Origin: Strigamia acuminata
Lineage: Eukaryota; Arthropoda; Chilopoda; Geophilomorpha; Linotaeniidae
Length of the DNA stretch: 64,000 nt
Reading direction: 5' to 3'
Assembly (NCBI GenBank): GCA_949358305.1
Contig: OX442315.1
Span: 21,292,427-21,356,426, forward strand
A program made the translations under genes and the position numbers. The notes under the pieces were generated by a model that did no database searches, had not been told where the DNA came from, and was given only the letters and a program-made list of their open reading frames with translations. The first letter of the stretch is position 1; every line of letters starts with the position of its first letter. This document shows, in pieces, positions 28,323 to 52,678 of the stretch.

Positions 28323-31300
28323 ATGGGGTGGTTGTGTGTTTGGATTACTTTCTTACCGCTATTATTAGTGGAAGCATCTACTATTACATTTCAAACTCCA
28401 GTACAGCATGATAGAAGTCAAGAAAGTGAAAAAATTAGCAAGAAAGTAGCAAGCGTTGGTGATGGTGAATCAAACGGAGCCGTCGGTGGTGAAATGTTAA
28501 AAACACTAACTGAAACTCACTATTCTAATCATGGAATCAAATATGGAGAAAAACGAGATGAAATAAGATATATTGATAGAAGTAAGTTGCAGAATTTTGA
28601 AGGTTTTATCTATATTGAAAAAAGGAAGAGAAACAAACGGGCGCCGTCTCCTGCCACAGCAGACAAAAGTAAACCAGCCGTTCCCATTCCTTCTGTTACC
28701 ACGAAGAAACCAGCCGTTCCCATTCTTTCTATCACAATCAAACCTGCTGTTCCCATTCCTTCTATCGCAATCAAACCTGCTGTTCCTACTCCTTCTATCG
28801 CAATCAAACCTGCTGTTCCTACTCCTTCTATCGCAATCAAACCTGCTGTTCCCATTCCTTCTATCGCAATCAAACCTGCTGTTCCTACTCCTTCTATCGC
28901 AATCAAACCTGCTGTTCCTACTCCTTCTATCGCAATCAAACCTGCTGTTCCTACTCCTTCTATCGCAATCAAACTTGCTGTTCCTACTCCTTCTATCGCA
29001 ATAAAACCAGCTGTTCCCATTCCTCCTGTCGCAAGCAAACCTGCTGTTCCCATTCCTTCTGTTACCACAAAGAAACCAGCCCTTCCCATTCCTCCTGCTA
29101 CTACAAACGTAGGTAAACCAGCTCTTCCCATTCCTCCTGCTATCACAAAAGTTGTTAAACCAGCCCTACCCATTCCTCCTGCTACTACTAATATTGGTAA
29201 ACCAGCCCTTCCCATTCCTCCTGCTACAAACATCGGTAAACCAGCCCTTCCCATTCCTCCTGCTACAAACATCGGTAAACCAGCTCTTCCCATTCCTCCT
29301 GCTACAAACATCGGTAAACCAGCTCTTCCCATTCCTCCTGCTACCACAAACATAGGTAAACCAGCCTTACCAAACATAGGTACACCAGCCTTACCGAACA
29401 TTGGTAAACCAGCCCTACCGAACGTTGGTAAACCAGCACTACCAAACATAGGAACGCCAGCCCTACCAAACATTGGTAAACCAGCCCTACCGAACATTGG
29501 TAAACCAGCACTACCAAACATAGGAACACCAGCCCTACCAAACATTGGTAAACCAGCCCTACCGAACATTGGTAAACCAGCACTACCAAACATAGGAACA
29601 CCAGCCCTACCAAACATTGGTAAACCAGCCCTACCGAACATTGGTAAACCAGCACTACCAAATATAGGAACACCAGCCCTACCAAATATTGGTAAACCAG
29701 CCCTACCAAACATTGGTAAACCAGCCCTACCAAACATTGGTAAACCAGCCCTACCAAACATAGGTAAACCAGCCCTACCAAATATAGGTAAACCAGCCCT
29801 ACCTAACATTGGTAAAACAGTCCTACCAAACATAGGTAAACCAGCCCTTACCATTCCTCCTGCTACTTTAAAACCTGGCGTAAAGCTACCTTCAGGAAAA
29901 GAGTTAAAACCTACGTCAAAAGCTACGTCAAAAGCTACGTCAAAAGCTACGTCAAAACCTACGTCAAAAGCTACGTCAAAAGCTACGTCAAAACCTACGT
30001 CAAAACCTACGTCAAAACCTACGTCAAAAGCTACGTCAAAACCTACGTCAAAACCTACGTCAAAATCTACGTCAAAACCTACATCAAAACCAGGTGCAAA
30101 ACCGACGTCTGGACCCGAGTCTACTAAGATTCTTGCAACAACTTCTAGACCAAAAGCTGAGGGAGTGTGCTTTAATCGTCCTAAGCGATACGTCAGTAAG
30201 TCTTATCTAACTTATTTCTCGGTTTTAAACATATATTTTTATTTCTTAGGCGAAGACTTATCTGAGCATGTGTAAATGTGAGATAATGAGAGATAATAAA
30301 GATTTAAAAAAATTTGCGCCACCGATACCTGCAAACCCGAATGAGCCAAGGAAGCAGTGTAAAATGCCAAATACTGCGTCTAAGGTAGTACACATTATTC
30401 CAGTAATTACCGCGCACATTTCGAACTAATCAAATTGTAATCCGTATTTAGGATGTACAGAATTTATTTGCTGATAATCTAAAAGCTTGTTATTGGCGAA
30501 AATTAGGATTGGTAATTTAAATTAAGGATTTCATTAAATGTACGATTTTGTAATTTTCTGATTTTGTATAATCACAAAATCAGTCAAATTCAATTTTGCC
30601 CTTGAGCATTAAAATATACTGAAAATAGTCACATGACCAAATCAACTGCAGCACGTGAATTTTTTGAGATGGCCACTTAGGTCGAGCTTGGCTGCCTTAA
30701 TTTAGTTTTGTATTTAACAAGTCTCAAAATCGCAAAAACTGTTTGTTTGATTTTGTGAGTTTTCGTTTTTCATTCTTTGTGTTTTTGCAATGATACACAT
30801 GGTACAGATATCGCACGACAAATTCATGAGTGCAAAATTACAAAATCGCTTCTATTAATGAAACTCCTTGGTGTTTTAAATTGCAATAACAATTAATGGT
30901 CTACATTTCCAGATTCCAAAAAATGAAAAAAATGAAAAAAATAATAAGAAGTTGGTACCAACTGATTTTGAAAAATATAAGAAAATGTTTGAACTGTATG
31001 AATCAACACCACATGTAAGAAATTAGCTTAGGTTAGAACCTGCGCATTAAGCATCCTTCAATGCACCGCATACAAAAAACATGTCATGAAACCACATCAG
31101 CTGGATGACTCTGTTATCCAGAAAAACAACGAGTGGATGTCTACATTGCAGTTACAATACAACGCGCTAAACGCCCAAAATCTATCTCGTACAAATGGAA
31201 TTTGGTTTTCCAAATTAGCATACCTTTTGCGCAAAACTGGTTTCTTTACATGATCAATTTACCAGAAAACCAAAATTCGAATTTTCACTGATCTAGAAAA

Positions 31301-32842
31301 CTGTGATTATGTAAACTTGGTAAATGAGATGAGTTATCCGCAAGAGTAAATGGGTTAATAAACTACTGGATTTTAGTACGCAGTACATTATTTACTTAAT
31401 TCACAAAAAAATGATTTAAGAACGAAATTATTTAAGGAATAGAATTATTACATTAGATGATATTATCAGATTAATAAATTGTATTTTCAGATAAAAGAGA
31501 TGCTGAGCAATGCAGTTGACAAATGTACAAAGGACAAAAATAAAGTGAGCAAGTGTTTTATTCTTTTTTTCTTGTGTATCTATAATTAATCTTGCTTTGA
31601 ATGTATAGACTAAGACTAATGAGCAGAAATACGCATGCCTCAAAGAAGAAATGCGCATAGTAAGTCTACCAATTGTTTATTTTAAGCTAATCACAAGGGT
31701 GTAACTTGTCCAAAATACCGCATAAAAAGACCTGTTAATCATACATCCAAATTTGAAACTAACCTAATGTAAAGTTAGACAAGTCGGTAGTGTTAGTTAC
31801 AATTTATTCACAGTAAACTAAATGCATATTGTCTGCAGTCGCTGTCACTAATGATAACATAGCAATGATGTCTCAGATTCTCATCAAAGGCGCATCATCG
31901 TATGGACGCATTGCCAAAAATAAGAATAAAAAAAATAAATTAAAAATTTGGCGAGTTTGGTTTAATTTTATTAATATAAATTTGGGGCCCCAATTGGTGA
32001 AAGTGTCCTGGGCCCCAAGGACCATGACGCACGATTGATCCTGGATGAGTAAAACTAGTAGTTCACAATATCAAGGCAGTTTTAAGATCCTCATAGGTCT
32101 TAGGCACTTTTATTTCCAGAGACTTCTGTGCAATTTTTTAAAATTATTTTATGCTAATTTTATCATTTGCACACACGTATGTGGTTATATCTTTTATTGT
32201 TAATCTTGAAAGTACTCGTAAATTGCTGTGCGCTGTAAACGGCTCTGAACCCTTGCTGACACAAAATCCTGGGTCTGTGATTAGTTTTTGAAAGGTAGTA
32301 AGCACAGCGCAATTAAACCTAACTTACCACCTACATCTTACGGTATCTTCCCCAACCAACCAAAAGTGATTTAGGTGTATCATCTTGCACTATGCTGCTG
32401 GCCCGATGGTTGGAGTTATATTTGATCAGTTGCTGCATTCAAAAAGTCGTGATAAGTGTTGTAGGTGTTTGTGTTTTTGTTTTGTGATGTTAAAAGATGT
32501 GATGTGATGTGATGTTAAAACAAACACAGACACACCAAGAGCACTTAAAATACGCCTTTTTGAATGCAGCTAGTGGCATAGTAAAATGAACACTACAAAA
32601 TGGCAATACCTTTCGCATACAGCAAAATAAGGAAATAAAAAATACACGATACTGATGTATTAATCTGGGAATCAACATTTTGGAACAGTGATTGGAATTG
32701 TGAAAAAGTAAGCATTCGATCTTACACGCACTGCAGATTATCTAATACCCTTTTTCTCTCAAAAGTGAATATAAAATCAAAACTTAAAACGGTTAAAATT
32801 TGTGCTGTTTTATATTTTCAGATATGCAGTGACATAGATTAA
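28323..32842 (+). CDS. R1: secreted proprotein with Pro/Ala-rich tandem repeats and OBP-like tail, 7 exons
   Basis: Exons: 28323-30191, 30250-30384, 30452-30511, 30913-31014, 31491-31544, 31609-31659, 32822-32842, giving 763 aa with all introns in phase 0. The signal peptide is MGWLCVWITFLPLLLVEAS. A propeptide-like region ends at RNKR (103-106). Repeats follow: an 11-residue KPAVPTPSIAI type, a 13-residue KPALPIPPATNIG type, about twenty 8-residue KPALPNIG units, then a TSKP/TSKA run. The tail (exons 2-7) has CKC, QCKMP, ACYWRKLGL, DKCTK, YACLKEE and ICSD. C3 is seven residues before its exon end, C4 the twelfth residue of its exon, and C5-X8-C6 holds. The first donor is GTCAGT; reading through it ends the frame after eighteen codons. 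Function unknown; a secreted structural or adhesive protein is one inference. Confidence 0.75.
28671..29860. repeat. Coding tandem repeats of R1 (33-, 39- and 24-bp units)
   Basis: Three blocks: 33-bp units at about 28730-29010, 36- to 39-bp units at about 29080-29350, and 24-bp units at about 29355-29850. Within the last, units alternate K-K-T (two KPALPNIG, one TPALPNIG) for four rounds, a 72-bp higher-order repeat. Units lack stop codons on either strand, which makes long false frames on the minus strand. Confidence 0.9.
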
Positions 32843-33197
32843 GCCGAAAATAAGTTTATAAAAATTGTTATATCTATGCAATGTGGGTATTTTGTTTATG
32901 GCTACATAGTACAAGTTTTCCAATTATATTGTATAGACTAATTAAAACCTTCAAAAAATACAACACACGCGTTTTAAATGGTGATTAGTGATTTACACAC
33001 ATTAAACTCTCATTAAAATTTACAAATCTAAAAATCGCACGAATCTATTCACGACTTTTGAATAAATATTTACAAAAGATAGAAAAATTTGATTTATATT
33101 GTCAGTCAAACATCAGTTGTATTAATATTGTGACATAGAAAAAAATTTCACGATATGCCGTATTGTAATTTTTGGTAAATAAAGAAATGGATATATA
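32843..33197. other. Sequence downstream of R1, conserved in R3 and R4
   Basis: AT-rich 3' flank that is repeated after R3 (44536-45260) and R4 (52679-52990), so it belongs to the duplicated block. No gene is seen. Confidence 0.55.
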
Positions 33198-33413
33198 CAG
33201 GGGCGGATCTAGCTTTTCGGGGGCCCGGGGCTTGAGGTTTTTTCGGGGCCCTTTATCGAAATTTTTAATAGCGACCTTCCTTCTTTTTTGTTTTTTAGCG
33301 ACTTTTTTTTTTTTTTTTTTTTAGTACATGGCCCTGCGTCTTGGCCCCCCCCCCCCTAGAATTTGGGGGCCCGGGGCTCAAGCCCCATTAGCCCCTATGT
33401 AGATTCGCCCCTG
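33198..33413. mobile_element. hAT-like MITE with 8-bp target duplication
   Basis: Ends CAGGGGCGGATCTAG and CTACATAGGGGC-type inverse (GATTCGCCCCTG), with a GC-rich interior (GGGGGCCCGGGGC in inverse at both sides). It is flanked by GATATATA at 33190-33197 and 33414-33421, a perfect 8-bp duplication. The same site is empty after R3 and R4. No coding capacity. Confidence 0.82.
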
Positions 33414-33421
33414 GATATATA

Positions 33422-33685
33422 GGGTATGCGGTAACATTTTGTAGTTTTATTTTGTAAAAATAAAGTTTTATAATAATATAGTCACTTGATAAAAGTCACC
33501 TCACAGTTGGCTTCGGATCAAAAAAATAAACAGCTGGTTGTGAAATTGCAAAATATTTTTTCAATATAAAAAAAAATGAGAACAAATACAAGCAAAACTA
33601 AGAAAAACAAAATATAAATACAAAAAAAGGAAAGTAACTACTATTAGAAGTTTTAGAAAAACTAATCACATATTGTAAGCAAAAC
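33422..33685. other. AT-rich spacer of the duplicated R block
   Basis: Matches 45275-45600 and 52980-53270, which lie between R3/R4 and the J-type sequences. No gene. Confidence 0.55.
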
Positions 33686-34914: not shown

Positions 34915-35270
34915 ATCTGTCCACAAAAAAACTACGATCTTTACCACAAAAGAAGACAAACTAAGAAATTTATGATAAAGTTCTGGAAAAAATTACCGAA
35001 GTTATAATCAAATTTCAAATAAACAATAGTTGATATTTGATTACTTTTGTGTAGCTAAATCTTATGAATGAAATGGAGCGAAAATATTTGAATGCTTATG
35101 GGCACGAAAATATTAGTATATGATAATTTCTAACAAAATATAAATATTATAATTAAGTAATTTAATAAACTTATGTAGTTTCTAACATTTCGACATAGGC
35201 AGAAGTGAGAAACTTGATTTGATGGTACAAAATTCTTTATAACACATCCCAAATAAACTTCATGAAAAGC
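34915..35270 (+). pseudogene. H-type gene remnant (parts of exons 3, 4 and 5)
   Basis: Matches 25710-26075 of gene H along exon 3 end, intron 3, exon 4 and exon 5. Exon 3 now reads into a stop at the former donor. Exon 5 has a large internal deletion between TTCGACAT and GAAGTGAGAAACTTGATT. No signal exon is left. It sits just before R2 as H sits before R1. Confidence 0.75.
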
Positions 35271-35722: not shown

Positions 35723-36454
35723 TAGGCGCATTCGAAAAGTCATTAAAACGAGTGTAAACGTGTTTACACTCGTTTTCACACGACATTTACACGAATTAAT
35801 TCGTGTAAATGTCGTGTAAACTGGTTAAACGGAAACGGCCTGTACGCCACGTTTCCGTTTAAAATCTCCGTGCAACGAGTTTTCTCGTTGAAATCGGGTC
35901 TTGCTGGCAGCCATCTTGGATTTTCGTTAGATCGGTTGGAACGATGTCGATCGCAAGAACAATTTTTTAGCAGGTATTAGCCGCATTCTTGCGATCGAAT
36001 GCGACCGATGTTCGATCGCATTTGTACGATCGAATACGGCCGACGTTCGACCGACGTTCGGCCGCATTTGTACAATCGAATGCGGCCGACGTTCGGCCGA
36101 CGTTCGGCCGCGTTTGTGCGATCTAATGCGGCCGGTGTTCGGCCGCATTTGTGCGATTGAGGCGGCTGTTCAGCCGATTCCCGTTCGGAAATAAATATTA
36201 ATAATACAAATAATTAAAATAAATTTACATTTTATAATCATGTTTTTATAATCTCCTGTTTTTTTTTAGAGTAAAAAACAACAATAATGACTATGGTTAT
36301 TATTTGGACTAATTTAATATTTACACTTGAATTTACACTACTGAATTTTACACAGAAATTTATTTTGAAACTCGAAAATTGGGTCGTTTAACTTGAAATT
36401 TACACTACCAGTTGCACTGGTCGTTTAGTGCAAATTACTTTTCGAATGCGCCTA
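35723..36454. mobile_element. MITE with internal GC-rich minisatellite, inserted at the R2 transcription start
   Basis: Perfect 18-bp terminal inverted repeats, TAGGCGCATTCGAAAAGT, at 35723 and ending 36454. Subterminal palindromes are present (GTGTAAACGTGTTTACAC; ACGGAAACG and inverse). At about 35980-36165 a GC-rich tandem array based on GCGGCCGACGTTCGGCCGC words stands out from the AT-rich surroundings. Sequence on both sides rejoins the R1/R3/R4 5' UTR exactly, so the empty site is known. No transposase. Confidence 0.85.
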
Positions 36455-36490
36455 GTGTTGAAGCCAAACCAACATTAATTTAAGAAGAAA

Positions 36491-37952
36491 ATGGGGTGGT
36501 TATGTGTTTGGATTACTTTCATATTATTAGTGGGAGCAACTAATAATACATTTATAACTCGAAAACAGCATTATGCAAGTCAAGCAAGTGAAGTGAGAGC
36601 CGCAAGAATTGGTGATGGTGAATCAAGCAGCGCAGTTGCTGGTGAGATATTAAATACACGAACAGAAACTGGATATTATGACCATGAAATTAAATACGGA
36701 GACGAGCCTGATGAAATAAGAGATACTGATAAAAGTAAGTTGCAGAATTTTGAAGATTATAAGTATACTGAAAAAAGGAAGAGAGAAACAGATCAAGATA
36801 AAAAAGATAAAGCTGCTAAAATTGCAGCTGATGTAAAAGCTGCAGCTGATAAAGCTAAAGCTGATTTCAAAGCTAAAGCTGATAAAGCTGCAGCTGATGT
36901 TAAAGCTAAAGCTGATAAAGCTACAGCTGATGCTAAAGCTAAAGCTGATAAAGCTGCAGCTGATGCTAAAGCTGCAGCTGATGCTAAAGCTGCAGCTGAT
37001 GCTAAAGCTGCAGCTGATGCTAAAGCTGCAGCTGATGCTAAAGCTGCAGCTGATGCTAAAGCTGCAGCTGATGCTAAAGCTGCAGCTGACACTGCTAAAG
37101 CTAAAGCTGATAAAGCTGCAGCTGACACTGCTAAAGCTAAAGCTGATAAAGCTGCAGCTGATGCTAAAGCTGCAGCTGACACTGCTAAAGCTAAAGCTGA
37201 TAAAGCTGCAGCTGATGCTAAAGCTGCAGCTGATGCTAAAGCTGCAGCTGATGCTAAAGCTGCAGCTGATGCTAAAGCTGCAGCTGATGCTAAAGCTGCA
37301 GCTGATGCTAAAGCTGATGCTAAAGCTGCAGCTGACACTGCTAAAGCTGCAGCTGATAAAGCTGCAGCTGATAAAGCTGCAGCTGATGCTAAACGAGCTT
37401 CTGAAACTACGTCAAAAACTACCACAAAACCAGCTTCAGAAACTACGTCAACAACTACCACAAAACCAGCTTCAGAAACTACGTCAACAACTACCAGCAC
37501 TACCAGCTTCAGAAACTACGTCAAAAACTACCACAAAACCAGCTTCAGAAACTAAGTCAACAACTACCACAAAACCAGCTTCAGAAACTACGTCAACAAC
37601 TACCACAAAACCAGCTTCAGAAACTACGTCAACAACTACCACAAAACCAGCTTCAGAAACTACGTCAAAAACTACCACAAAACCAGCTTCAGAAACTAAG
37701 TCAACAACTACCACAAAACCAGCTTCAGAAACTACGTCAACAACTACCACAAAACCAGGACCTGGATCTACTAACATTCGTCCAACTTCTGGAGCAAAAC
37801 CTACGGAAAAGTGTTTTATTAAACCTAACAAAGAAGTTAGTAAGTTTAATCCAACTTATTTCTTAGTTTTTTAAATATATATTTTTATTTTTTAGGCAAA
37901 GTTTTATCTGAGCAAATGTAAATGTGATTCAGGTGGAGCAAACCTCAATTGA
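36491..37952 (+). pseudogene. R2: repeat proprotein gene, frameshifted and without its OBP-like tail
   Basis: The start MGWLCVWITF, propeptide and KRKR site (95-98) match R1/R3/R4. The repeat region is quite different: Ala/Lys/Asp units (AAADAK, 18 bp) at about 36830-37390, then ASETTSTTTTKP units. At about 37495 one extra base relative to the repeat unit shifts the frame, and a stop follows at 37553-37555, leaving 354 aa. The other frame continues to the conserved donor at 37841. Exon 2 (37896 onward) keeps YLSKCKCD, then jumps within the codon run into the R3 upstream block (from 37926), so exons 3-7 are missing. It may still express a truncated alanine-rich secreted protein. Confidence 0.8.
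36830..37395. repeat. 18-bp coding repeats of R2 (Ala-Ala-Ala-Asp-Ala-Lys)
   Basis: GCTGCAGCTGATGCTAAA units, interrupted by ACTGCTAAAGCTAAA variants. The encoded peptide is almost wholly Ala, Lys and Asp and would be strongly helical. All frames are open. Confidence 0.9.
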
Positions 37953-38249
37953 TGATTATCTCGTTTGCCAGACCAATGAATGACAAGCTTGTATTCTGAA
38001 GGGTATAATGGATAACATTATGAATACATAATTTTGCTTACGCATTAGTAAGCTATCATAGTTCATTATCTTTTGCACTGCGTAATGCAATTCTTCAATA
38101 TATGAATGGAGAATTTCCGATGTAGGCAAAAACATCCTCTTATATTGATAATGCAATTTAGCAAATATTTTGGAAGAAGTATAAAATAAACGTACACAGA
38201 CTCATTATATTCAGTGTTGAAGCTAAACCAACATTAATTTAAGAAGAAA
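37926..38249 (+). promoter_or_regulatory. Upstream block, TATA box and 5' UTR of R3
   Basis: Starts exactly where R2 exon 2 breaks off. It is identical by eye to 45925-46248 upstream of R4. TATAAA at 38180-38185. Confidence 0.65.
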
Positions 38250-41200
38250 ATGGGGTGGTTATGTGTTTGGATTACTTTCTTACCGGTATTAGTGGTAGCA
38301 ACTACTATTACATTTCAAATTCCAGTACAGCATGATAGAAGTCAAGAAAGTGAAAAAAATAGCAAGAAAGTAGCAAGCGTTGGTGATGGTGAATCAAACG
38401 GATCAGTCAGTGGTGAGATGTTAAAAACACTAACTAAAACTCAATATTATAACCACGGAATCAAATATGGACAAAAAGAGGATGAAATAAGATATATTGA
38501 TAGAAGCAAGTTGCAGAATTTTGAAGGTTTTATCTATTTTGAAAAAAGGATGAGAAACAAAAGGGCGCCGTCTCCTGACACAGTCAAAACTAAGCCAGCC
38601 GTACCGATTCCTCCTGCTACTACTAATATTGGTAAACCAGCCCTTCCCATTCCTCCTGCTACTACTAATATTGGTAAACCAGCCCTTCCCATTCCTCCTG
38701 CTACTACTAATATTGGTAAACCAGCCCTTCCCATTCCTCCTGCTACTACTAATATTGGTAAACCAGCCCTTCCTATTCCTCCTGCTACTACTATTGTTGG
38801 TAAACCAGCCCTTCCCATTCCTCCTGCTACTACTAATATTGGTAAACCAGCCCTTCCCATTCCTCCTGCTACAAACATCGGTAAACCAGCTCTTCCCATT
38901 CCTTCTGCTACCACAAACATAGGTAAACCAGCCTTACCAAACATAGATAAACCAGTCCTACCAAACATTGGTAAACCAGCACTACCAAACATAGGAACAC
39001 CAGCCCTACCAAACATAGGTAAACCAGCCCTACCAAACATAGGAACACCAGCCCTTCCGAACATTGGTAAACCAGCACTACCAGCTTCAGAAACTACGTC
39101 AAAAACTACCACAAAACCAGCTTCAGAAACTAAGTCAACAACTACCACAAAACCAGCTTCAGAAACTACGTCAACAACTACCACAAAACCAGCTTCAGAA
39201 ACTACGTCAACAACTACCACAAAACCAGCTTCAGAAACTACGTCAAAAACTACCACAAAACCAGCTTCAGAAACTAAGTCAACAACTACCACAAAACCAG
39301 CTTCAGAAACTACGTCAACAACTACCACAAAACCAGCTTCAGAAACTACGTCAAAAACTACCACAAAACCAGCTTCAGAAACTAAGTCAACAACTACCAC
39401 AAAACCAGCTTCAGAAACTACGTCAACAACTACCACAAAACCAGGACCTGGATCTACTAACATTCGTCCAACTTCTGGAGCAAAACCTACGGAAAAGTGT
39501 TTTATTAAACCTAACAAAGAAGTTAGTAAGTTTAATCCAACTTATTTCTTAGTTTTTTAAATATATATTTTTATTTTTTAGGGAAAGTTTTATCTGAGCA
39601 AATGTAAATGTGATACAATGAGAAATATTAAAGAATTTACAAAATATCTACCAAACCCACCAAAAGACCCGAAACAGAAAAAGCCGCAGTGTTTAATGCC
39701 AACGACTTCGTCTGAGGTAGTACACATTATTCCAGTAATTACCGTGCACATTTCTAACTAATCAAATTGTATTTAGGATGAAAGGGAAACATTTGCTAAG
39801 AAAGTAAAAACTTGTTTTTGGCGAAAATTAAAATTGGTAATTACAATACGGGGTTTTATTAAATGCACGACTCTGCAATTTTTTGATTTTGTAATAATCA
39901 CAAAATCAATCATTTTTTATATCGTCCCATTCAATCGAAAAAATTATATTTGTGCGATTAAATGATATTCTGAAGATAGTCACACGAACAAACCAACCGT
40001 TAAATGAAATACAGAAAAAATTGTTTACAATTAGTAAAATAAAACTAAAATTTTAAAAATTAATTACTAACAACAACGTTTTCACACTTAGAAGTTAGTC
40101 GCCTCCATTTTGTTATGGGTTTGACGAGTCTCAAATTCGCGTGCCAAAATCGCAAAAACTACCTTATGCTTGATTTTGTGAGTTTGTGGTTTTCCTCTTT
40201 GGTGTTTTTGCAATTAAGCACATAATTGAAGGAACTGATTTCACATGAGAAACATAAAAGTGCAAAATTTCAAAATCGCTTCTATTAATGAAACTCTCTT
40301 GAGTTTTATATTGCAGTAACGATTAATAATCTATATTTTACAGATTCCAGAAGATAATTATTGGCCAGTTGATTTGGTAAGGTATAAACAAGTATTAGAT
40401 ATGTATGGATCAGCATCACAGGTAAAAAATTTGTTGAAAATAAAACTTTTAGTATATACAAACCCCTTACAATTACTAAGTTTAGATGGTCATAGTTTTC
40501 TAGAAAAGTAGAAATTCGAATTTTGCTTTGCTGGAAAATTGCATGTACATGGCGTTATTTTTCCAATAAGCGTGAGTGACGTCGTGTGACTAGATTAAAA
40601 TCTCCGTTTACCTTATGGATTAATCATACTGCGTACAAACAACATGCCAACGACGATATTAGGTACATCAGCTGGATGATTATTTTCCAGAAAGCCAATG
40701 GGTGGGTGTTTACAATGCAGTTTACAATGCGCAAAACGTCCAAAATCTATCTCCTACAAATGTAATTTGGTTTTCCAAATTAGCATACCTTTTGCACAAA
40801 ACTATTTTAATTACATGATCGATTTTCCAGATAACAAAATTCGAATTTTCACTGTGATCATGTAAACTTGGTTAATGAGATGAGTTATCCAAAAGAGTAA
40901 ATGGATTAATAAACTACTGAATCTTAGTATGTAGTACATTATTTACTTAATTCAGAAACAAAATAGTAATTATTGAGAACAAATTTGTCTAAAGAATATA
41001 ATTATCACATTAAGCAATATTATCAGGAATTCAGGATAAATAAATTGTATTTTCAGACAAAAGATAGGCTGAAAGCTGCAATTGACAGATGCACACGTGA
41101 CAAAAAAGTGAGCAAGTTTTTTCTTCTTTTTTTTCTTCTGTATCTGTAAGTAATCTTGTTTTGAATATGTAGAATAATAACGACAGCTATAATTGCTTCA

Positions 41201-44200
41201 GAGAAGAGATGCGCAAAGTAAGTAAATTAAACATCAGGCCTTTTTCTACCCATTGTTCAGGGTGCAACATGACCAAAAGACAAAAGCACCAGGCTGCACA
41301 AAACCCTAAGATTAGGTCTTTTAAACATACATATAAATTTGAAACTGATCTAGTGTAGTATTTTTGTTAGACTAGTTGAAATGTCTTCCCTGCTAGGGGA
41401 AGACATCAAAGTGCGTAGTTGTCATTTGAATGAAGAGGAAAAACGAGGGGTTGTTTTCTGCTCAAGATTTTAGAGTTAACTCATTTATTCATCATCAAAA
41501 AAACGAGGAGTTGCCTAGGAGATAACTCCTAGCCAACTTTATAGAGTTATTGTTGTGTAATGATAGTAGAAACATGGCGAGACACTACATTCCTTCCCCC
41601 TGCCTGTCCTTGTAATTGTAACTAAAGGTTCATTCATTCTGGATGTGGAGAGCTGGTTCCACAACTTAATGTCTCGTACTGGAGGTGAAGCATTCTGGGG
41701 CAAAGCATGACGCCACATTGTGTGCTTTGCTCGGTCCATTGTATACTCAGATCTGCCTGCGACACTGGGTCCGGACACTGCACTGGGTCCTTGGACTTGA
41801 GTGACACTGGGACACCGCGACGCGATGTCAGCTGCACCAGTAATCTAAATTTAACTGCATTTTGATTCGAATGATATAAATTAATCTGATTTGCTATTTC
41901 TAGCAACAATATTGTTTTCAGTGTTAGTAAAACATGTTCATCCCCCTTAATATATTCGATGTTCGAACTCAAGTGGGGGATATTGTTGACTTGAGAACGA
42001 GTTTTGGCGGCAATTATGATGGTTTCGTCGTTTGAGAGACCCACAAATTGAAGGGGGTAAACTAGGGCTGTCCCCTGCACACAGAACGACTGATGACAGT
42101 CCAGAAATGTACTACCGTAATAAAAACCTTGATTTCAAACTTTAGTCGACTGCAGCAGTGCAGAAAAGTTGATCACAATTTTAGCATGGTAAAGAAGTCG
42201 TCCAGTCCCATGAGACAACGAAGGATGGGCGACAAGCATGATCCACACCCAAGAAAGGCCAAGAAATTCGATAAGCATTTTTCGGCGTTCACTGATTGCT
42301 CCAGTTGCTTGAATTACAACCGTGGGCCAGGAAGCATGTAGGGCAACAAAGGGATGTACTGTCATGTGTGCGATAGTCGCTTCCGGCAAGCGAGTTGAAG
42401 GAGATCACGACCATTGCAGGAAACCGGAATTTAATTAGGTCGGGTGATTCGTTGCAATGGCTGCAACAGTCATGATCGCTGCTTGTCCCCATAGTGTCTT
42501 CGAAGGGATGGAACTGGGCGCCCGACTGTTGGCTTGATCCGTCCGGTTTAGAATCGGCGGTGATCCTGGTGTTGATGCTGACGATTGACAGTGATCCTGG
42601 TGTTGATGCTGACGATTGACAGTGATCCTGGTGACGACGATTGGCATAATGCTCGTGTTGACGATTGACATGATGCTGGTGTCGACAATTGACATAATCC
42701 AAATAGGGGTCTCCAGAGGTCCGCCGACAAGGCCCTTGAGGTGACGGCTAAATGATCGCGAGTGTCCCAATCTCACACTTGCTAATTGTTCGGTCGATGT
42801 CGTCCATGTCGTTGTTCGAACGTTATCCGTGTAGGACTTCAAAATCCGAAAAGAATATCGTCATTTGTATCGTTCGGTTGATGTTCCTCACACCACGTCA
42901 GATTGCCGATCGTTATCTTTGACCAATGTTCGATCATACCGAAGGGACATTCCTTGCAGTCAAAGCTTCACATCTGCGGAATTTTCCCAACCGCTTGCAG
43001 TATCCTGTTGACTGCACCATTTGAAATGTCTTCCCGCCTAGGGGAAGACATCCAAGTGTGTTGTTGTCATTTGAATGAAGAGGAAAAACGAGGGGTTGTT
43101 TTCCTAGGTAACTCCTAGGCAACTTTGTAGAGTTATTGTTGTGTAATGATAGTAAAAACATGGCGAGACACAACAGTAGTATTAGTTACAATTTATTTGT
43201 AAAAAATCCAATCCACAGTAAAGTAAATGCATATTGACTACAATCACTCCACTAATGATGACATGACGGCGCTGTGATGCCACGGATCCTCATAAGAGAG
43301 GCGCATCATCGTTTGTTAAAAGTGCGCTGGGTCGCCAAGTACCTTGACACATGACTAATCGCCGTGGTTGAGTACAGCTATACTCAAAACCACCACAACG
43401 TTGACCTATGGTTTGAGCCGTATCACTGGTGTAGTGGCACAAAAAGTAGCTCATAACACCATATTTGTAAAAAAAGTCCAGACATGTGATCGATTACCAA
43501 CATTGTCAAAGGTACAGAACTACTTTTCCGCGTAGTAGAACACAGTACACAGTTAGGCGTAAACCGGCTGTCATAGGTCAACGTTGTGGTGGTTTTGAGT
43601 ATAGTAGTTCACAATGTCAAGGCTGTTTTAAGATACCCGTAAGTCTTTTAGGCATTTTTACTTCAAGAGACTTCTATGCAATTTTTTAAATCCTATTTTA
43701 TGCTAATTTTATCGTTTGTACGCACGTATAACAATTTTTTTTTGTTAATCTTGAAAGTACTCGTTAATTGCAATGCGCTGTTAACGCCACTGAACCCCTG
43801 CTGACACAAAAACCTGAGTCCGCCATTGGTTCAGGATTTTTGAAAAGCTAGTGCGCACAATACAATTAAACCTAACCTATACTCTGGCCATGTGTAAGTT
43901 GAGCCTAAATAACCGCCTCACAACTCACTCTGTGCTGCCGCCAGGGAAAATAGTTCGGTTTATTGCTTGCTTCTTCCAGAAACCAAAACAATTTTCAAAC
44001 TAATTATTGACTGTTTAGTCTGAACAAAATGGATACCAGTAACAACGGCAGTTGTTGTTCTTCTCCAGATCTGCTTTCGTTGCAATCCTGGTGTTTGGAT
44101 CTATTTTCTTGTATCACTACACCAGAGAAAAGTCCCTGATTTAGGCTCAACTTACACATGGCCAGAGTATACCACCCATATCTTATGGTACCTAACCCAA

Positions 44201-44535
44201 CCAACCAAAAGCGATGTAATCTTGCTCCTTGCATCTACTCCCATGGTTGGAGCCATATTTGATCCGTGACCCAATAAAACGAACTAAAATACAATAAAAT
44301 GGCAATGTTTTTGCATAAGCGAAATAAGGAAGTAAAAATAACAAATATCTAACCCTCGAATAAAATACGCGATACTGATGTATTAATCTGGGAATAAACG
44401 TCTTTTAATTTTGAAAAGTAAGTACGGTATTCTTATCCACACTCCATTTTTCTCTCAAAAGTAAAAGTAAAATTAAAACTTAAAACGGTTAAAATTTTAA
44501 TTGTTTTATATTTTCAGATATGCAGTGACGCATAA
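38250..44535 (+). CDS. R3: secreted proprotein with mosaic repeats and OBP-like tail, 7 exons
   Basis: Exons: 38250-39521, 39582-39716, 39777-39836, 40344-40421, 41057-41107, 41173-41217, 44518-44535, giving 552 aa with all introns in phase 0. The signal peptide, propeptide and RNKR site match R4 without visible difference. The repeat region is KPALPIPPATTNIG and KPALPNIG units up to about residue 278, then abruptly ASETTSTTTTKP units as in R2. Tail: CKCD, PQCLMP, TCFWRKLKL (seven residues before exon end), DRCTRDKK (C4 twelfth), NCFREEMRK and ICSDA, with C5-X8-C6. The first donor is GTTAGT; reading on through the intron gives a stop after eleven codons. Intron 6 is swollen to 3.3 kb by an LTR-like element and two MITEs. 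Confidence 0.75.
41377..43175. mobile_element. Non-autonomous LTR-like element in R3 intron 6
   Basis: Direct repeats with TG...CA ends at 41377-41589 (213 bp) and 43022-43175 (154 bp, with an internal loss of about 60 bp). Both contain GGGGAAGACATC and GAGTTATTGTTGTGTAATGATAGTA. The interior of 1.4 kb has no reverse transcriptase, gag or integrase frame and includes a short tandem stretch (GTTGATGCTGACGATTGACA) at about 42565-42690. Flanks CTAGT and GTAGT may be a decayed 5-bp duplication. R1 and R4 lack it. Confidence 0.7.
43381..43601. mobile_element. Tc1/mariner-type MITE (TA duplication) in R3 intron 6
   Basis: Perfect 30-bp terminal inverted repeats starting TACTCAAAACCACCACAACG, flanked by TA on both sides (43379-43380, 43602-43603). 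R1 and R4 have the uninterrupted sequence. Non-coding. Confidence 0.82.
43880..44169. mobile_element. Second Tc1/mariner-type MITE in R3 intron 6
   Basis: Perfect 31-bp terminal inverted repeats starting TACTCTGGCCATGTGTAAGT, with TA on both sides (43878-43879, 44170-44171). R1 has the empty site. Shares the TACTC end with the element at 43381. Confidence 0.82.
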
Positions 44536-45600: not shown

Positions 45601-45795
45601 TACGCGTGATAATTTGTGGAAATCATGCAATCGTGTTTACTGGCTCTCTTCTGAACTGCCTACGTTTCGAGGACAGCACATAAAAGCCAAAGTATAAGTT
45701 AATATGATTCAATCCGTACATAACATTGACAGGATGAAGATCACAAAAATGATTGTCTATGCTGCAGAAGCAATTTGCAATGGGTCAACAGAGAA
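45601..45795 (+). pseudogene. J-type gene remnant 2: promoter and signal exon
   Basis: From GTGATAATTTGTGG to AGAAATTTGTAA it matches gene J (53270-53470), including the CATAAAAGCC box and the ATG at 45735. The signal-peptide frame carries small changes that break it (a lost base pattern after GTCTATGCTGC), and after the former donor the sequence goes straight into the R4 upstream block. Confidence 0.75.
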
Positions 45796-46248
45796 ATTTG
45801 TAATCAAAAGGCAGGAAACATGAGTCGAGTTGAAAAGAAACTTAAAACTTCTGATTTGTTTATGAAGTACAGACATACACACCCTTAGTACTATATATGT
45901 TGTCATTGGTTATTGGTGAGTGGATCTTCAGGTGGAGCAAACCTCAATTGATGATTATCTCGTTTGCCAGACCAATGAATGACAAGCTTGTATTCTGAAG
46001 GGTATAATGGATAACATTATGAATACATAATTTTGCTTACGCATTAGTAAGCTATCATAGTTCATTATCTTTTGCACTGCGTAATGCAATTCTTCAATAT
46101 ATGAATGGAGAATTTCCGATGTAGGCAAAAACATCCTCTTATATTGATAATGCAATTTAGCAAATATTTTGGAAGAAGTATAAAATAAACGTACACAGAC
46201 TCATTATATTCAGTGTTGAAGCTAAACCAACATTAATTTAAGAAGAAA
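45796..46248 (+). promoter_or_regulatory. Upstream block, TATA box and 5' UTR of R4
   Basis: Same block as upstream of R1-R3, TATAAA at 46179-46184. Confidence 0.65.
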
Positions 46249-49200
46249 ATGGGGTGGTTATGTGTTTGGATTACTTTCTTACCGGTATTAGTGGTAGCAA
46301 CTACTATTACATTTCAAATTCCAGTACAGCATGATAGAAGTCAAGAAAGTGAAAAAAATAGCAAGAAAGTAGCAAGCGTTGGTGATGGTGAATCAAACGG
46401 ATCAGTCAGTGGTGAGATGTTAAAAACACTAACTAAAACTCAATATTATAACCACGGAATCAAATATGGACAAAAAGAGGATGAAATAAGATATATTGAT
46501 AGAAGCAAGTTGCAGAATTTTGAAGGTTTTATCTATTTTGAAAAAAGGATGAGAAACAAAAGGGCGCCGTCTCCTGACACAGTCAAAACTAAGCCAGCCG
46601 TACCGATTCCTCCTGCTACTACTAATATTGGTAAACCAGCCCTTCCCATTCCTCCTGCTACTACTAATATTGGTAAACCAGCCCTTCCCATTCCTCCTGC
46701 TACTACTAATATTGGTAAACCAGCCCTTCCCATTCCTCCTGCTACTACTAATATTGGTAAACCAGCCCTTCCTATTCCTCCTGCTACTACTATTGTTGGT
46801 AAACCAGCCCTTCCCATTCCTCCTGCTACTACTAATATTGGTAAACCAGCCCTTCCCATTCCTCCTGCTACAAACATCGGTAAACCAGCTCTTCCCATTC
46901 CTTCTGCTACCACAAACATAGGTAAACCAGCCTTACCAAACATAGATAAACCAGTCCTACCAAACATTGGTAAACCAGCACTACCAAACATAGGAACACC
47001 AGCCCTACCAAACATAGGTAAACCAGCCCTACCAAACATAGGAACACCAGCCCTTCCGAACATTGGTAAACCAGCACTACCAAACATTGGTAAACCCGCC
47101 CTACCAAACATAGGAACACCAGCTCTACCAAACATAGGTAAACCAGCCCTACCAAACATAGGAACACCAGCCCTTCCGAACATTGGTAAACCAGCACTAC
47201 CAAACATTGGTAAACCAGCCCTACCAAACATAGAAAGACCAGCCCTACCAAACATAGGTAAACCAGCCCTACCAAACATAGAAACACCAGCCCTTCCGAA
47301 CATTGGTAAACCAGCACTACCAAACATTGGTAAACCAGCACTACCAAACATAGGAACACCAGCACTACCAAACATTGATAAACCAGCCCTACCAAACATT
47401 GATAAACCAGCCCTACCAAACATTGGAAAACCAGCCCTACCGAACATTGGTAAACCAGCACTACCAAACATAGGTAAACCAGCTCTTCCTATTCCTCCTG
47501 CTACGTCAAAACCTGGCGCAAAGCCACCTCCAGGAACTGAGTCAAAATCTACGTCAAAACCTGGCCCAAAGCCACCATCAGGAACCCAGTCAAAACCTGG
47601 CCCAAAGCCACCATCAGGAACCCAGTCAAAACCTACGTCAAAACCTGGCGCAAAGTCGTCTCCAGGAACTGAGTCAAAATCTACGTTAAAACCTGCCACA
47701 AAGCCACCTTCTGGAACCGAGTCAAAATCTACTTCGAAACCTGGCGCAGTACCGACATCTGGACCTGGGTTTACTAAAATTCTTGCAACTTCTGGACCAA
47801 AACCTACGGAAGAGTGCTTTATTCAACCTGACAAAGAAGTTAGTAAGTTTAATCTAACTTATTTCTTAGTTTTTTAAATATATTTTTTTATTTTTTAGGT
47901 GAAGTTTCATCTGAGCAAATGTAAATGTGATACTATGAGAGATAAAAAAGAACTTACAAAATATCTACCAAAGCCACCAAAAGACCCGAAACAGAAAAAA
48001 CCGCAGTGTTTAATGCCAACTACTGCGTCTACGGTAGTACACATTATTCCGGTAATTACAATGCACATTTCTAACTAATCGAATTGTATTTAGGATGAAA
48101 AGAATTCATTTGCAGAGAATGTAAGAACTTGTTATTGGCGACAATTAAAATTGGTAATTAAAATAAGGAATTTCATTAAATGCACGATTCTGCAATTTTT
48201 TGTTTTTATAATAATCACAAAATCAATCATTTTTGATATCGTAACTTTCAACCGCAGAAATTTCTATTTGTGCTATTAAATGATATTTTAAAAATAGTCG
48301 CACGAACAAACCAACCATGAATTGAGATACAGAAAATATTGTTTACAATTCGTATAATGAAACTAAAATGTTAAAAATCAGTTATATTAATAACAACGTT
48401 TTCACACCTAGAAGTTAGCCGCCTCCATTTTGTTTAGTGTTCGACGAGTCTAAAATTCGCGTGCCAAAATCGCAAAACTACCTTATGCTTGATTTTGTGA
48501 GTTTGCGGTTTTGCTCTTTGGCGTTTTTTCAATTAAGCACATGGTTGATGGAACTGAATTCACATGAAAAACATAAAAGTGCAAAATTTCAAAATCGCCT
48601 CTATTAATGAAACTCTTTTGTGTTTGATATTGCAATAACGATTAAGAATCTACATTTTTCAGATTCCAGGAGATAAGTTGGGACCAATTGATTTTGTAAG
48701 GTATAAACAAGTATTAGATAAGTATGGATCAGCACCACAGGTAAAAAATTATTAAAAATAAAACTTTTAGCATCCACAAACCTCTTACAATTACTAAGTT
48801 TAGATAGTCATAGTTTTCTAGAAAAGTGGAAATTCGAATTTTGAATTGCTGGAAAATTTCAAATTGCAAAGATAGCAGAAAAATGTCCCAAATCACCTAA
48901 CGTTAACAAGGTCAATACTTGCAGTGGTAGAGCAGTGACTAAGTGTGTTGTTTGATTGTCGGTAAATTCAAGAGTGTGTCAAAACTCTAAATTTGAGCCC
49001 AGCACACTTTGGATCTGCGCAGTAGATATGCGCAATGAGTGCATTTTGGTGTAACAAAAGAATTATTGCACCAAAACGGTTAATTTGTAACTCACCCCAG
49101 CCAAATTGGGGTGAGGTGTGCCTGGGGAGCTTTTACCCCCAAGATACAGCAGGCTGGTTTGGCATGTGCCAAACCAGAGTAATTACCAGAGTAATTAATT

Positions 49201-52200
49201 AATTACCAGAGTAATTAAAAATAATAAATATTTCTAAGTGGTGACAACAAATATATAAAATACACTTGAGATCATCACAAAAGTTTCCAGAAAAGTGAAA
49301 ATTCGAATTTTGCTTTACTGGAAAATTGCATTGGCGTTAGTTCTCCAATAAGCATGACGTTGTATGACGGGATTAAATCTCCGTTTAACTTGTGTATTAA
49401 TCATACACAATGTACTGCATAGAAACAACATGTCAACGATGATACGAGTGGGTGTTTTTATTGCAATTTGCAATACGCGAAACGTCCAAAATCTATCTCG
49501 TACAAATGGAATTTGGTTTTCCAAATTAGCATACCTTTTGCGCAAAATTGGTTTCTTTACATGATCAATTTACCAGAAAAGCAAAATTCAAATTAGGATG
49601 GTTTTTTTTACCGATCCAGTTGTTTTAAACTTTAGCCAAGTACTTGAAACTGTACTTTGGGCACACCCAATTACTGTTGCCACATCCTTTTGAGTATTTC
49701 TTTCCTTCAGCAGGCGAATAATTCGGTTTTCGGTGTCTTGAGACAGTTCTTTTGTAGGAGCCATGGCAGATGAATAAATGATGGCAAATAATGAACTACA
49801 AGACACATTTTACATTGTTGTCATTTGCATATTTAAACCAATGTATACATGGAATTGTCTGTAATTGTTTTTTTGTGTGTGCAAATATCGCATACTTATT
49901 TCCACTGCTTGCAGCAATCTGATACTTTTTTCCAACCCCATGTTAAGAAAACATGGGATTTCTCAGCTTTAGAATTTTTTTTTTTAAATAGCCAAAAGTT
50001 AGATTAAATGTTGTTATTATTTAGCCCTTTATTGATTCCATCTAACCCTTTAACAGGAACTTTTTCTACTGATTTTTTGATGCAGAAAAAGTATTGCATA
50101 CTTTCTGCCAGGGGTTGTAATTCACAAACAAAATAGTTATTATTTAAGAACAAATTTGTCTAAGGAATAGAATTATTACATTAGGCAAGATTATCAGAAA
50201 CTCGTGATAATTTCATTGTATTTTCAGACAAAAAAGAGGCTGAAAGCTGCAATTGACAGATGCACACGTGACAAAAAAGTGAGCAAGTTTTTTATTCTTT
50301 TTTCTCTTCTGTATCTGTAAGTAATCTTGTTTTGAATATGTAGAATAATAACGACAGCTATAAATGCTTCAGAGAAGAGATGCGCAAAGTAAGTAAATTA
50401 AACATCAGTCCAATTTCTACCCATTGTTCATTTTGTGCACAAGTAGAATTAGGCCTTTAAAACATACATCCAAATTTGAAACTGATCTAGTGTAAAGTGT
50501 TTTTATTTTTGTTTGACTCGTCGGTAGAATTAGTTACAAATTTATTTAAAAAAATCTAATCCACAGTAAAGTATACTAGTATGCATATTGACTGTAGTCA
50601 CTCCACTAATGGTGACATACCGTAGCTGGGGTCCAATGCGTCCCTGATGACTCATCAGGGACGCATTGGACCCCAGATTTATAGGGACCCCCATTTCAGT
50701 TAATTTATGCCAAAAATAAGAATGACAAAAAATAAATAAAAACTTAGAGAGTTTGATTTAATTTTATTAATATAGATTGGAGGCTCCCGTTTGTTAAAAG
50801 TGCCCTGGGCCCCAAACTACCATTAAGCACTACTGATCCTCGTGGATGAGTAAAATTAATACACAATCGTAATGACAATTGCAATGTCAGGGCCGTTTTA
50901 AGATACTCCTAGGTTTTAGAAACTCTCATTTCAAGAGACTGCTGAGCAATTTTTTTTACTCATTTTATGCTACGTGCACGCACGTATAACAATAATCTTG
51001 AAAGCACCCATAAATTTCAATGCACTATGAACGCCGCTGAATCAGGGTAGGATTTACGTACTTGTACAAGCATAACAAGCAGTTGCTTAGGGCCCCCACC
51101 CATCGGGGGCCCCGGGCCGCCGGAAAAAGATCCGCATTTTCAAAAAAAAAAATCTGCATTTTCCACGAAAAGACGTCGCATATTGTATACACTTACATAT
51201 TTATGAAATATAAAGAGAGATAATATAAGTCTATTTTTAAAATTAAATTTGTTTTTTTTTGCGCGGGGGGGGGGGGGGAGCTAAAAAAATTATTGCTACC
51301 TAAATCCGGCCCTGCTATGAACCTTTGCTGATACCCATGCCATTCAGACTTTACAATAAACGAGCCAGTTGTCAGGACTAAGCTCACCCAATGCTCGTAA
51401 TCAGGCATCCTTTAAACGCATTTCAATCCGAAAGAAAACAGGTGCATGACCGCATGCATTATTACATTTTTTAAAATTAATTTTGGAAGTACTCGAAAAT
51501 TAAAATTTGCAATGCACCGTTAACGCCTCTGGAGGTCTGGACCCGTTCTGACACAAAACCCTGGTTCCGCCATTGGTTCAGGATTTTTGGAAAGGTGGTG
51601 CGCACAATGCAATTAATCCTAAGTGTGGCGATTATTCGCCGTATAATAAATAAGGTCCTAGAAAACTTAAGAGATGAGTGAACGAATGCATTTGTTAAAA
51701 ATCAGCAATGGTTTATTTGATCATAAAATAGGACAGCAAAAAAAGGACTCGTTTGGATTGCGTATCAGCGTGGTTCTATTTAACCTAACTTGACATTTAA
51801 TCTCGGCAAAAATGGAATGGACTTACAGTTGGAGCACTGGATCTCTTCTTATTTCATTACACCCTTTAAACTTCTGGTTAGCGTAATTGTTAGCCGAATT
51901 TCCGTTACCGAAACACGATTCATACGACGTCTGCTCCATGTTGTAGTTGGTCAACAGTCCATTCGATGGAGCGTTCAAACTGCGTTTTCCGATATTGAGT
52001 CCACGTTTGAATATTTCTCAAGGAAAAGATGGCCGAAACAATTACCTTGTCCTCGAGTACGAGTGCTCGTCTTGATGGTGCAAAAAATTATCTGTGCGAC
52101 TTGTGTATCTCTAGGCTCCCGTTCAATTTCCGGTCTCCGGATTATAGCTGTTGTTCAATCCTGGAGTTGGACCCACTTGTCTCCCTGGGGACAAGCGCCA

Positions 52201-52678
52201 ATAGACCGGATGTGTCCACTATTTGTACCTTTTTAATGCTTCACTATTTTGGGGCACTTTTAGGGTTTTGTGGGCTCTTGTGGTTTTTATCACTGCCACA
52301 TAAGCTTGTGGTATGTAACCCAACCAACCAAAGGCGATGTAAGTGCATCATCATCTTGCATCTAGCCCCCATGGTTGGAGCCATATTTGATCAGTGACCC
52401 AATAAAATGAACTAAAATACAACAAAATTGCAATGCTTTTTGCATACAGCGAAATAAGGAAATAAAAATAACAAATATCTAATACTCGAATAAAATACGC
52501 GAGACTGATGTATTAATCTGGGAATAAACGTCTTGGAATTTTGAAAAGTAAGTATTTTTATCCACACTCCAGACTGCTTAAAACCATTTTTTTCTCAAAA
52601 GTGAAAGTAAAATTAAAACTTAAAACGGTTAAAATTTAAATTGTTTTATATTTTCAGATATGCATTGACGCAGAATAA
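46249..52678 (+). CDS. R4: secreted proprotein with Pro/Ala-rich tandem repeats and OBP-like tail, 7 exons
   Basis: Exons: 46249-47838, 47899-48033, 48094-48153, 48663-48740, 50228-50278, 50344-50388, 52658-52678, giving 659 aa with all introns in phase 0. The first ~278 residues are the same as R3. KPALPNIG-type units continue to about residue 415, followed by a Lys/Pro/Ser/Gly/Thr region (KPGPKPPSGTQS type). Tail: SKCKCD, PQCLMP, TCYWRQLKL, DRCTRDKK, KCFREEMRK and ICIDAE, again with C3 seven residues before its exon end, C4 twelfth and C5-X8-C6. The first donor is GTTAGT. Intron 4 carries a SINE-like insertion and a Tc1-like remnant; intron 6 a hAT-like MITE, a 51-bp palindrome and a solo-LTR-like sequence. 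Confidence 0.77.
46580..47500. repeat. Coding tandem repeats of R4
   Basis: 42- and 39-bp KPALPIPPATTNIG-type units to about 46930, then 24-bp KPALPNIG-type units with K, T, E and D variants to about 47485. The first part is the same as R3 38580-39080. Confidence 0.9.
48850..49300. repeat. Insertion in R4 intron 4 including dispersed repeat copy 2 (SINE-like)
   Basis: Absent from R3 intron 4. It contains GGTAGAGCAGTGACTAAG (like tRNA box A) near 48925, a weaker box-B-like GGTAAATTCAAG, and a body shared with 34600-34760. A tandem TAATTACCAGAG word follows at about 49170-49220. SINE identity is tentative. Confidence 0.45.
49594..50108 (-). mobile_element. Tc1-like transposon remnant with transposase N-terminal HTH
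   Basis: Minus-strand frame 49764-49588 begins MAPTKELSQDTENRIIRLLK and continues through QSTVSSTWLKF, which is the paired-like helix-turn-helix at the start of Tc1-family transposases. The frame is then lost and no DDE catalytic part is present. R3 lacks the insertion. Ends are not sharply defined. Confidence 0.6.
50626..50676. repeat. 51-bp perfect palindrome in R4 intron 6
   Basis: Two 25-bp arms starting CTGGGGTCCAATGCG are exact inverses around a single C. R1 and R3 have only unrelated or partial sequence at the matching place. Confidence 0.9.
51043..51314. mobile_element. hAT-like MITE in R4 intron 6
   Basis: Ends CAGGGTAGGATTTA and the inverse of CAGGGCCGGATTTA, with flanks CGCTGAAT and CTATGAAC as a decayed 8-bp duplication. 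The interior has GGGGGCCC words and poly-G, as in the element at 33198. Non-coding. Confidence 0.65.
51624..52300. mobile_element. Solo-LTR-like insertion in R4 intron 6
   Basis: Begins TGTGGCGATTATTCG and ends CACTGCCACA, so it has TG...CA ends with short inverted TGTGGC/GCCACA. It is flanked by TAAG on both sides (51620-51623, 52301-52304). R1 and R3 have the site without it. Frames inside show no recognisable protein. Confidence 0.6.

Follow-up and report, generated by a model that had tools for sequence, protein, structure and literature searches.

Predicted secreted repeat proproteins with an odorant-binding-protein-like tail in the centipede Strigamia acuminata

We consider a window of 64,000 nucleotides of chromosome 2 of the centipede Strigamia acuminata; all positions given below are counted from its first letter. 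The window contains three related genes, labeled R1, R3 and R4, together with a broken copy, R2, and nine small genes with the exon plan of odorant-binding-protein-like (OBP-like) genes. In all likelihood, to judge from the sequence, R1, R3 and R4 encode repeat proproteins that carry an OBP-like domain at their C-terminus. That they are secreted gland proproteins, with a repeat chain and an OBP-like end, likely to be found in a sticky defensive secretion, has in our opinion an even chance of being the whole explanation.

The three genes were first outlined by an inspection of the sequence alone, and rebuilding the models confirms the outline: each gene has a signal peptide, a propeptide, a cleavage site and tandem repeats, all in one large exon (1869, 1272 and 1590 bases in R1, R3 and R4), followed by six small phase-0 exons. 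The rebuilt genes lie on the forward strand, at positions 28323-32842 (R1), 38250-44535 (R3) and 46249-52678 (R4), and the junctions between the large exon and the first tail exon, 30191/30250, 39521/39582 and 47838/47899, are recovered exactly as originally proposed. All modelled introns have GT-AG borders, all exons are in phase 0, and the lengths of the tail exons are divisible by three in the three copies. A motif, TATAAAATAAA, is conserved exactly 70 bases 5' of each start codon, at positions 28253-28263 (R1), 38180-38190 (R3) and 46179-46189 (R4).

The large exon opens with MGWLCVWITF, a hydrophobic signal sequence when judged by eye, and continues with a propeptide of about 85 residues that closes, in R1, R3 and R4, with RNKR: the dibasic cleavage motif of the original prediction is present in all three, and can be described more precisely as a furin-type site. 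The chain from RNKR to the first cysteine of the tail has 311-509 residues. The tandem arrays had been given as 170-490 residues, and this has to be corrected, since they measure about 480 (R1), 285 (R3) and 391 (R4). The exon product past RNKR is made of 19-25% proline and 10-12% lysine, with only one or two aromatic residues, and its net charge is +61 in R1, +21 in R3 and +32 in R4; the chain of R3 also contains 24% threonine, which comes from a KPASETTS array and brings threonine and serine together to 31%. With a signal peptide, again judged by eye, and long low-complexity repeats, the R sequences have the features looked for in adhesive or silk-type proteins. Two further RPKR motifs are found, one directly past the first cysteine of R1 (30165-30191), as a second furin-like site, and one inside a proline-rich stretch of exon 3 of the small gene S6 (53705-53803).

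The small genes, S-1, S0a, S0b and S1 to S6, form a cluster that starts at 11.6 kb and share the plan of the R tails. In all twelve models, three R and nine small, the third cysteine (C3) lies seven residues before an exon end, C4 is the twelfth residue of its exon, and C6 is the second of the last exon. The original prediction had proposed these three rules, and a fourth, C5-X8-C6, which applies to the three R tails and to ten models in total, and breaks down in S4 and S5, where the spacing is X10. An alignment of the twelve domains has five cysteine columns common to all of them. One feature had been missed: C1 lies inside the giant exon, seven residues before its end, in the peptides CFIQPDKE (R4), CFIKPNKE (R3) and CFNRPKRY (R1), and the C1 mini-exon of S6 ends in the same way, with CLGKLPET. 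With C1 encoded by the repeat exon, a complete module requires that this exon be joined to the tail in phase 0. The R tails have eight cysteines, two of them, in the motif CKC, being extra.

Selection on the tail and on the propeptide was estimated from rates of nonsynonymous (dN) and synonymous (dS) substitutions by the Nei-Gojobori method on three copies only, and the strength of any positive selection is therefore uncertain. In the tail, dN is 0.415 between R1 and R3 and 0.359 between R1 and R4, versus dS of 0.235 and 0.212, which gives ratios of 1.77 and 1.70 and bootstrap P values of 0.015 and 0.024 for dN<=dS. The first 114 codons, identical in R3 and R4, have a dN/dS of 0.34 between R1 and either of them (P 0.002). 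Introns were compared in R1-R3 and R1-R4 as well: the divergence is 0.263 and 0.288 over introns 1-3 combined and 0.137 and 0.118 in intron 5, in each case below dN; in intron 4 it is 0.203 and 0.342. R1, R3 and R4 agree in all eight cysteine columns, versus 57 of the 138 columns overall (p 0.0006). In R1 and R4 the coding frame of the five middle tail exons is free of stops, against 8 and 23 stops in the two alternative frames of R1 and 9 and 13 in those of R4; when neutral change was simulated on the R4 tail with 60, 110 and 150 proposed changes, the frame stayed open in 5.8%, 1.2% and 0.4% of the runs, respectively. As far as such counts can indicate, the tail is a working domain behind a constrained propeptide, and it is probably under diversifying selection.

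The relation of the tail to known OBPs can be approached through profiles. With the curated cut-off of the Pfam family PBP_GOBP (PF01395) at 22 bits, three of the nine small genes score over it, two under it, and four are unlisted. A profile, A1, made of eight of the twelve sequences (R1, R3, R4, S1, S2, S4, S5 and S6) was compared with the 177,635 sequences of PDB: the best match is OBP1 of Varroa (7nyj, E 0.0041), followed by a pheromone-binding protein (6vq5, E 0.023) and by OBP28a (6qq4, 0.048), and among the matches above E 0.1 are calcium vector protein, a short D7 protein (7tvy, 0.48) and two Pumilio entries. Profile comparison of the R tails with S1, S2 and S6 yields an E of 0.00013 and a probability of 53%. 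Aligned by hhalign with S0a, S0b, S1 and S2, the R tails score 20.8 (E 0.008), a value reached by none of 200 column shuffles; with S6 alone, they score 20.5 (E 0.0098, probability 4.2%), reached by one shuffle in 200; and with S4 alone, 15.6 (E 0.094, without shuffles). The exon-cysteine frame, the hhalign shuffles and the five common cysteine columns together argue that the tail is homologous to members of the OBP superfamily. The proposed link between R tails and OBPs rests on the joint profile and on the exon frame, the latter being the stronger evidence.

Classical insect OBPs have C2-X3-C3, and here the corresponding distance is 17 residues in S1 and 20 in R4, even though S1, S2 and S3 score over the Pfam cut-off. 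The claim of an OBP-like tail thus holds as to the frame that is common with the small genes, but the cysteine spacing is of a non-insect type, that of OBP1 of Varroa. In this protein, VdesOBP1 (PDB 7NYJ/7NZA), the disulphides pair C1-C6 (21/141), C2-C3 (41/68) and C4-C5 (111/132), unlike those of insects (PMC8222343), and the four TurtOBPs have the same pairing (PMC8269058); "OBP-like" proteins of chelicerates belong with them, and such proteins are also mentioned from Myriapoda (PMC8222343). These mite-type OBPs are secreted, as the R proteins would be, and C3, C4, C5 and C6 align between A1 and VdesOBP1. The C5-X8-C6 spacing is that of VdesOBP1 (132/141), and C3 and C4 are separated by 42 residues in both VdesOBP1 (68/111) and S1, by 44 in R3 and R4, and by 52 in R1; S1 equals VdesOBP1 in C3-C4 (42) and C5-C6 (8), while the C2-C3 and C4-C5 distances differ. 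Unlike the mite-type OBPs, the R proteins have a propeptide, a chain of 311-509 residues and two extra cysteines, and sequence similarity is low. By cysteine spacing the R tails fall in the mite-type or myriapod OBP-like class, and disulphides C1-C6, C2-C3 and C4-C5 and a five-helix fold would be expected of them.

The position of C1 also bears on the origin of these genes. The original prediction had a repeat exon grafted in front of an OBP-like module: a repeat exon is indeed joined to a complete module, exon by exon as in the small genes, but since C1 lies in the repeat exon, the change is better seen as a lengthening of the stretch from signal peptide to C1. A FastTree tree of the twelve domains groups the R tails with S6, which adjoins R4, with a local support of 0.98, and puts the three R tails together with 0.62. 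The domain source would then be an S6-like gene of the cluster, in which the gap from signal peptide to C1 was filled by coding repeats, and the repeat cassettes would since have been swapped between copies through recombination. Two segments of R3 have their counterparts in the other copies: positions 37928-39083, which cover the promoter, the N-terminus and the first repeats, are identical over 1,156 bases to R4 45927-47082, and positions 39080-39614 are 97.9% identical to R2 37393-37928. With a 5' part equal to R4 and a 3' part close to R2, R3 is thus a recombinant of the two. R2 itself is without RNKR and has lost its tail. The 732-bp element that is inserted upstream of it is young: at least 40 near full-length copies, that of R2 included, are 98-100% identical across the genome (the best 40 of 502 candidates). 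Coordinates are collected in Table 1.

Table 1. Positions of the R genes, the inserted element and the small genes in the window.
Feature	Positions	Strand	Remarks
R1 exon 1	28323..30191	+	Signal peptide, propeptide, RNKR, repeats, C1 (CFNRPKRY); tandem-repeat arrays (Tandem Repeats Finder, TRF)
R1 tail exons 2-7	30250-30384, 30452-30511, 30913-31014, 31491-31544, 31609-31659, 32822-32842	+	Phase 0, GT-AG
R3 exon 1	38250..39521	+	Exact match to R4 in its 5' part; R2 type in its 3' part
R3 tail exons 2-7	39582-39716, 39777-39836, 40344-40421, 41057-41107, 41173-41217, 44518-44535	+	Rebuilt model
R4 exon 1	46249..47838	+	Signal, propeptide, RNKR, PALPNIGK repeats, C1 (CFIQPDKE)
R4 tail exons 2-7	47899-48033, 48094-48153, 48663-48740, 50228-50278, 50344-50388, 52658-52678	+	Rebuilt model
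R2, broken copy	36491..37928	+	Signal, propeptide, Ala/Lys-rich KAAADAK repeats; frame lost in SETTS array; ends inside exon 2
732-bp element	35723..36454	+	18-bp terminal inverted repeats; inserted between TATA-like motif and ATG of R2
S-1	11604..12478	+	8 exons; no Pfam OBP match
S0a	13236..14159	+	8 exons; Pfam PBP_GOBP 19.5 bits, under cut-off of 22
S0b	14619..15533	+	8 exons; 12.9 bits, under cut-off
S1	16328..17264	+	8 exons; 23.9 bits, over cut-off
S2	19197..20029	+	8 exons; 24.8 bits, over cut-off
S3	21379..22460	-	8 exons; 25.4 bits, over cut-off
S4	24006..24982	+	7 exons; no Pfam OBP match
S5	25387..27536	+	8 exons; no Pfam OBP match; C-terminal KDTTQNNEGV repeat extension
S6	53399..54758	+	8 exons; no Pfam match; groups with R tails in tree; distance of 7 from C1 to exon end, as in R

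Assuming that the proteins are processed as predicted, removal of the signal and furin cleavage would leave a mature, flexible and cationic chain that ends in a small helical domain, which a C1-C6 disulphide would close exactly at the junction with the chain. The chain would make up most of a sticky or fibre-like material, most probably the proteinaceous secretion with which the segmental (sternal) glands of geophilomorphs serve defence, and the tail would be its folded end, with a role in binding a small hydrophobic molecule or in driving assembly. We consider it fairly probable that the R proteins are structural components of an exocrine secretion; that this secretion is a defensive glue in particular is, in our view, less likely than not.

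Published descriptions of centipede secretions give this proposition its context. The segmental glands of most centipedes examined are said to store a proteinaceous defensive secretion, which in geophilomorphs is reported to be sticky and to harden and, in Linotaeniidae and other families, to contain cyanogenic compounds (PMC6023451); S. maritima is put in Linotaeniidae (PMC8056527), and the genome note of S. acuminata assigns that species to Geophilidae, Linotaeniinae (PMC10556566). In the sticky leg secretion of Lithobius, lectins with extensive disordered regions occur together with 18 families that have no assignment, and the same source notes that sticky secretions prominently feature proline-rich proteins and that insect venoms are known to include odorant-binding proteins (PMC11170834). 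The telopodal secretion of Lithobius forficatus resembles the R proteins in that its components are secreted centipede proteins, the lectin-PGs being made of a folded domain and a large disordered part; unlike that of R, this folded domain is a C-type lectin, and both the lectin-PGs and the "Glue" families are compared here by description only (PMC11170834). By analogy, a proline- and lysine-rich chain that ends in a small folded domain would fit the sticky or silky secretions of centipedes.

More distant parallels can be drawn. Onychophoran slime and pyriform silk contain proline-rich adhesive or silk proteins with long Pro- or Ala-rich repeats and few aromatics. The R proteins share the long repeats and the scarcity of aromatics, a likeness of descriptions and not of sequences, and we know of no proline-rich adhesive or silk protein with an OBP-like end.

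The same protein could also belong to the silk web or spermatophore of males, or to the glands of the ultimate legs, with repeats forming threads and an OBP-like end holding a pheromone. Males of Geophilus flavus are described, after Klingel, as producing silky threads for the spermatophore, possibly impregnated with pheromone, and the ultimate legs of male S. maritima as heavily covered with gland stalks (PMC8056527). Diversifying selection on the tail would suit a role in reproduction. Silks are usually biased toward glycine, alanine and serine, however, and R repeats are without such a bias, except for alanine in the broken copy R2. On balance we regard this alternative as rather unlikely.

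It is likewise natural to think of a venom-gland protein, or of a mucin-like or cornifin-like barrier protein, whose repeats, rich in threonine or serine and in proline, would be glycosylated or cross-linked, and whose tail would be a secreted cysteine-rich module. A constrained propeptide region next to a faster-changing cysteine domain agrees with such a protein, as do the 31% of threonine and serine in R3 and weak matches to Cornifin (22.4 and 19.2 bits, cut-off 34.8) and to the PT repeat (20.3 bits, cut-off 26.2), all of them under the cut-offs. On the other hand, the words odorant, OBP, proline and repeat are absent from the main text of a venom study of five centipede orders that includes S. 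maritima (PMC6878950), and we judge a venom or barrier protein to be unlikely. A bolder variant of the glue or silk proposal, which we consider quite unlikely, is a ligand-loaded structural secretion: each chain would end in its own OBP-like carrier, tied at C1-C6 and holding either a small aromatic compound, for instance a cyanogen (mandelonitrile or benzoyl cyanide), or a pheromone, the carrier being under diversifying selection and the cassettes reshuffled. If this were true, a sticky polymer and its chemical payload would be delivered as a single molecule.

A number of observations weigh against the preferred reading, that of a gland proprotein with an OBP-like end. The tails of R1 and R4, the two that were searched, have no match to Pfam PBP_GOBP; neither a profile of the three R tails alone nor S1 alone finds an OBP in PDB; and the probability that hhalign itself attaches to the comparison of the R tails with S0a, S0b, S1 and S2 is just 4.9%. 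In the tail, dN/dS is 1.06 between R3 and R4, and intron 6, in a gappy alignment, diverges by 0.441 (R1-R3) and 0.419 (R1-R4), at least as much as tail dN: the tail exons thus do not outrun every intron, and it is only introns 1-3 and 5 that they outpace in both pairs. The sequence holds no pointer to one gland over another. Finally, the phase-0 donors are GTCAGT in R1 and GTTAGT in R3 and R4, while in all three genes a GTAAGT, nearer to the consensus, lies four bases downstream; its use would shift the frame and lead to a stop after seven whole codons of exon 2 in each copy.

The last point leads to an alternative in which the tail is outside the product: with the downstream GTAAGT donor, or with intron retention, only the repeat protein would be made and the tail would be a relic. 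Donors of this kind serve 13 of the 62 introns of the small genes. However, four of these 62 introns also need a donor of the type GTTAGT or GTCAGT, which makes the phase-0 donor plausible here, though not the commonest, and a relic would hardly be expected to keep an open frame in three copies, all eight cysteines and exon lengths that are multiples of three. We hold a tail that is never translated to be very unlikely; both forms, tailed and tailless, may be produced side by side. That the R copies are decaying pseudogenes is scarcely credible: R2 is broken, with an element inserted, and comparisons with it give an N-terminal dN/dS of 0.84 to 1.02, showing no clear constraint on R2, but the models of the other three genes are free of stops and frameshifts and keep all their splice sites, and the ratio for R1 versus R3 or R4 is the 0.34 given above.

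Relatives were searched for in the genome, 237,517,015 bases in 157 contigs, exon by exon; such searches score only the best candidates and may miss distant copies. The N-terminal exon has four matches, for four candidates scored, all in the window, and no further R copy was found. With the R4 tail as query, 11 matches fall in R genes and one more (E 4.5) is due to chance; the DNA of the junction has four, one of which is the R2 piece. The 15 matches of S1 are all to genes of this cluster; S5 finds itself seven times, and once a remnant; S6 finds itself six times, with three weak matches elsewhere (E 1.3 to 6). A remnant of S5-type exons lies at 34927-35110 between R1 and R2, in pieces that are 78% and 85% identical. 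S5 also has tandem repeats of its own at the C-terminus (27306-27536), a separate gain of repeats within the cluster. An automatic search for chains of micro-exons recovered only parts of S-1 and S6, and an exon-homology search of the flanking 30 kb on either side showed only scattered weak pieces. A repeat query yields 110 matches in the genome, mostly of low complexity; among three other loci, two have repeat frames that by eye seem unrelated and the third has no long proline-rich frame among those listed. At the locus C11:7221501-7223500 we note an open reading frame of cysteine- and proline-rich repeats (CCSNCGWPC units), with a second frame also open, unrelated to R by eye.

Among about 5.8 billion proteins, neither the N-terminus of R1 (222 candidates) nor alignment A1 (611 candidates) has a match at E 0.001. 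As a control, NDOR1, at the left end of the window, found its S. maritima protein in UniRef, with 88% identity: the protein set covers at least a part of that proteome. The genome paper of S. maritima reports no members of the OBP family (PMC4244043). A nine-gene cluster may have been missed there, because many of the exons have only 33-72 bases, and OBP-like genes with micro-exons may be unannotated in that species. In the open-access literature we found no described family in which an OBP is fused to long repeats, and the statement of the original prediction that no such architecture was known is borne out within that scope: this is a known domain class in an architecture that we have not found described.

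Two other features of the window should be mentioned. A galaxin-repeat protein gene (55324-56409; PF24748, E 1.2e-53) adjoins S6, and a 21-base unit, TTTACCCTTTATTTACACGTT, is repeated 9.8 times in an array at 17901-18108.

If our reading of these genes is right, a close relative of S. maritima, a species reported without OBPs, has a cluster of nine OBP-like genes that also gave rise to long repeat proproteins. It would show a route by which a small carrier domain comes to cap one end of a secreted polymer, and it illustrates, within a small region, the exchange of repeat cassettes among tandem genes. R1, R3 and R4 would be candidates for the genes behind the protein component of the sticky or silk secretions that geophilomorph centipedes produce.

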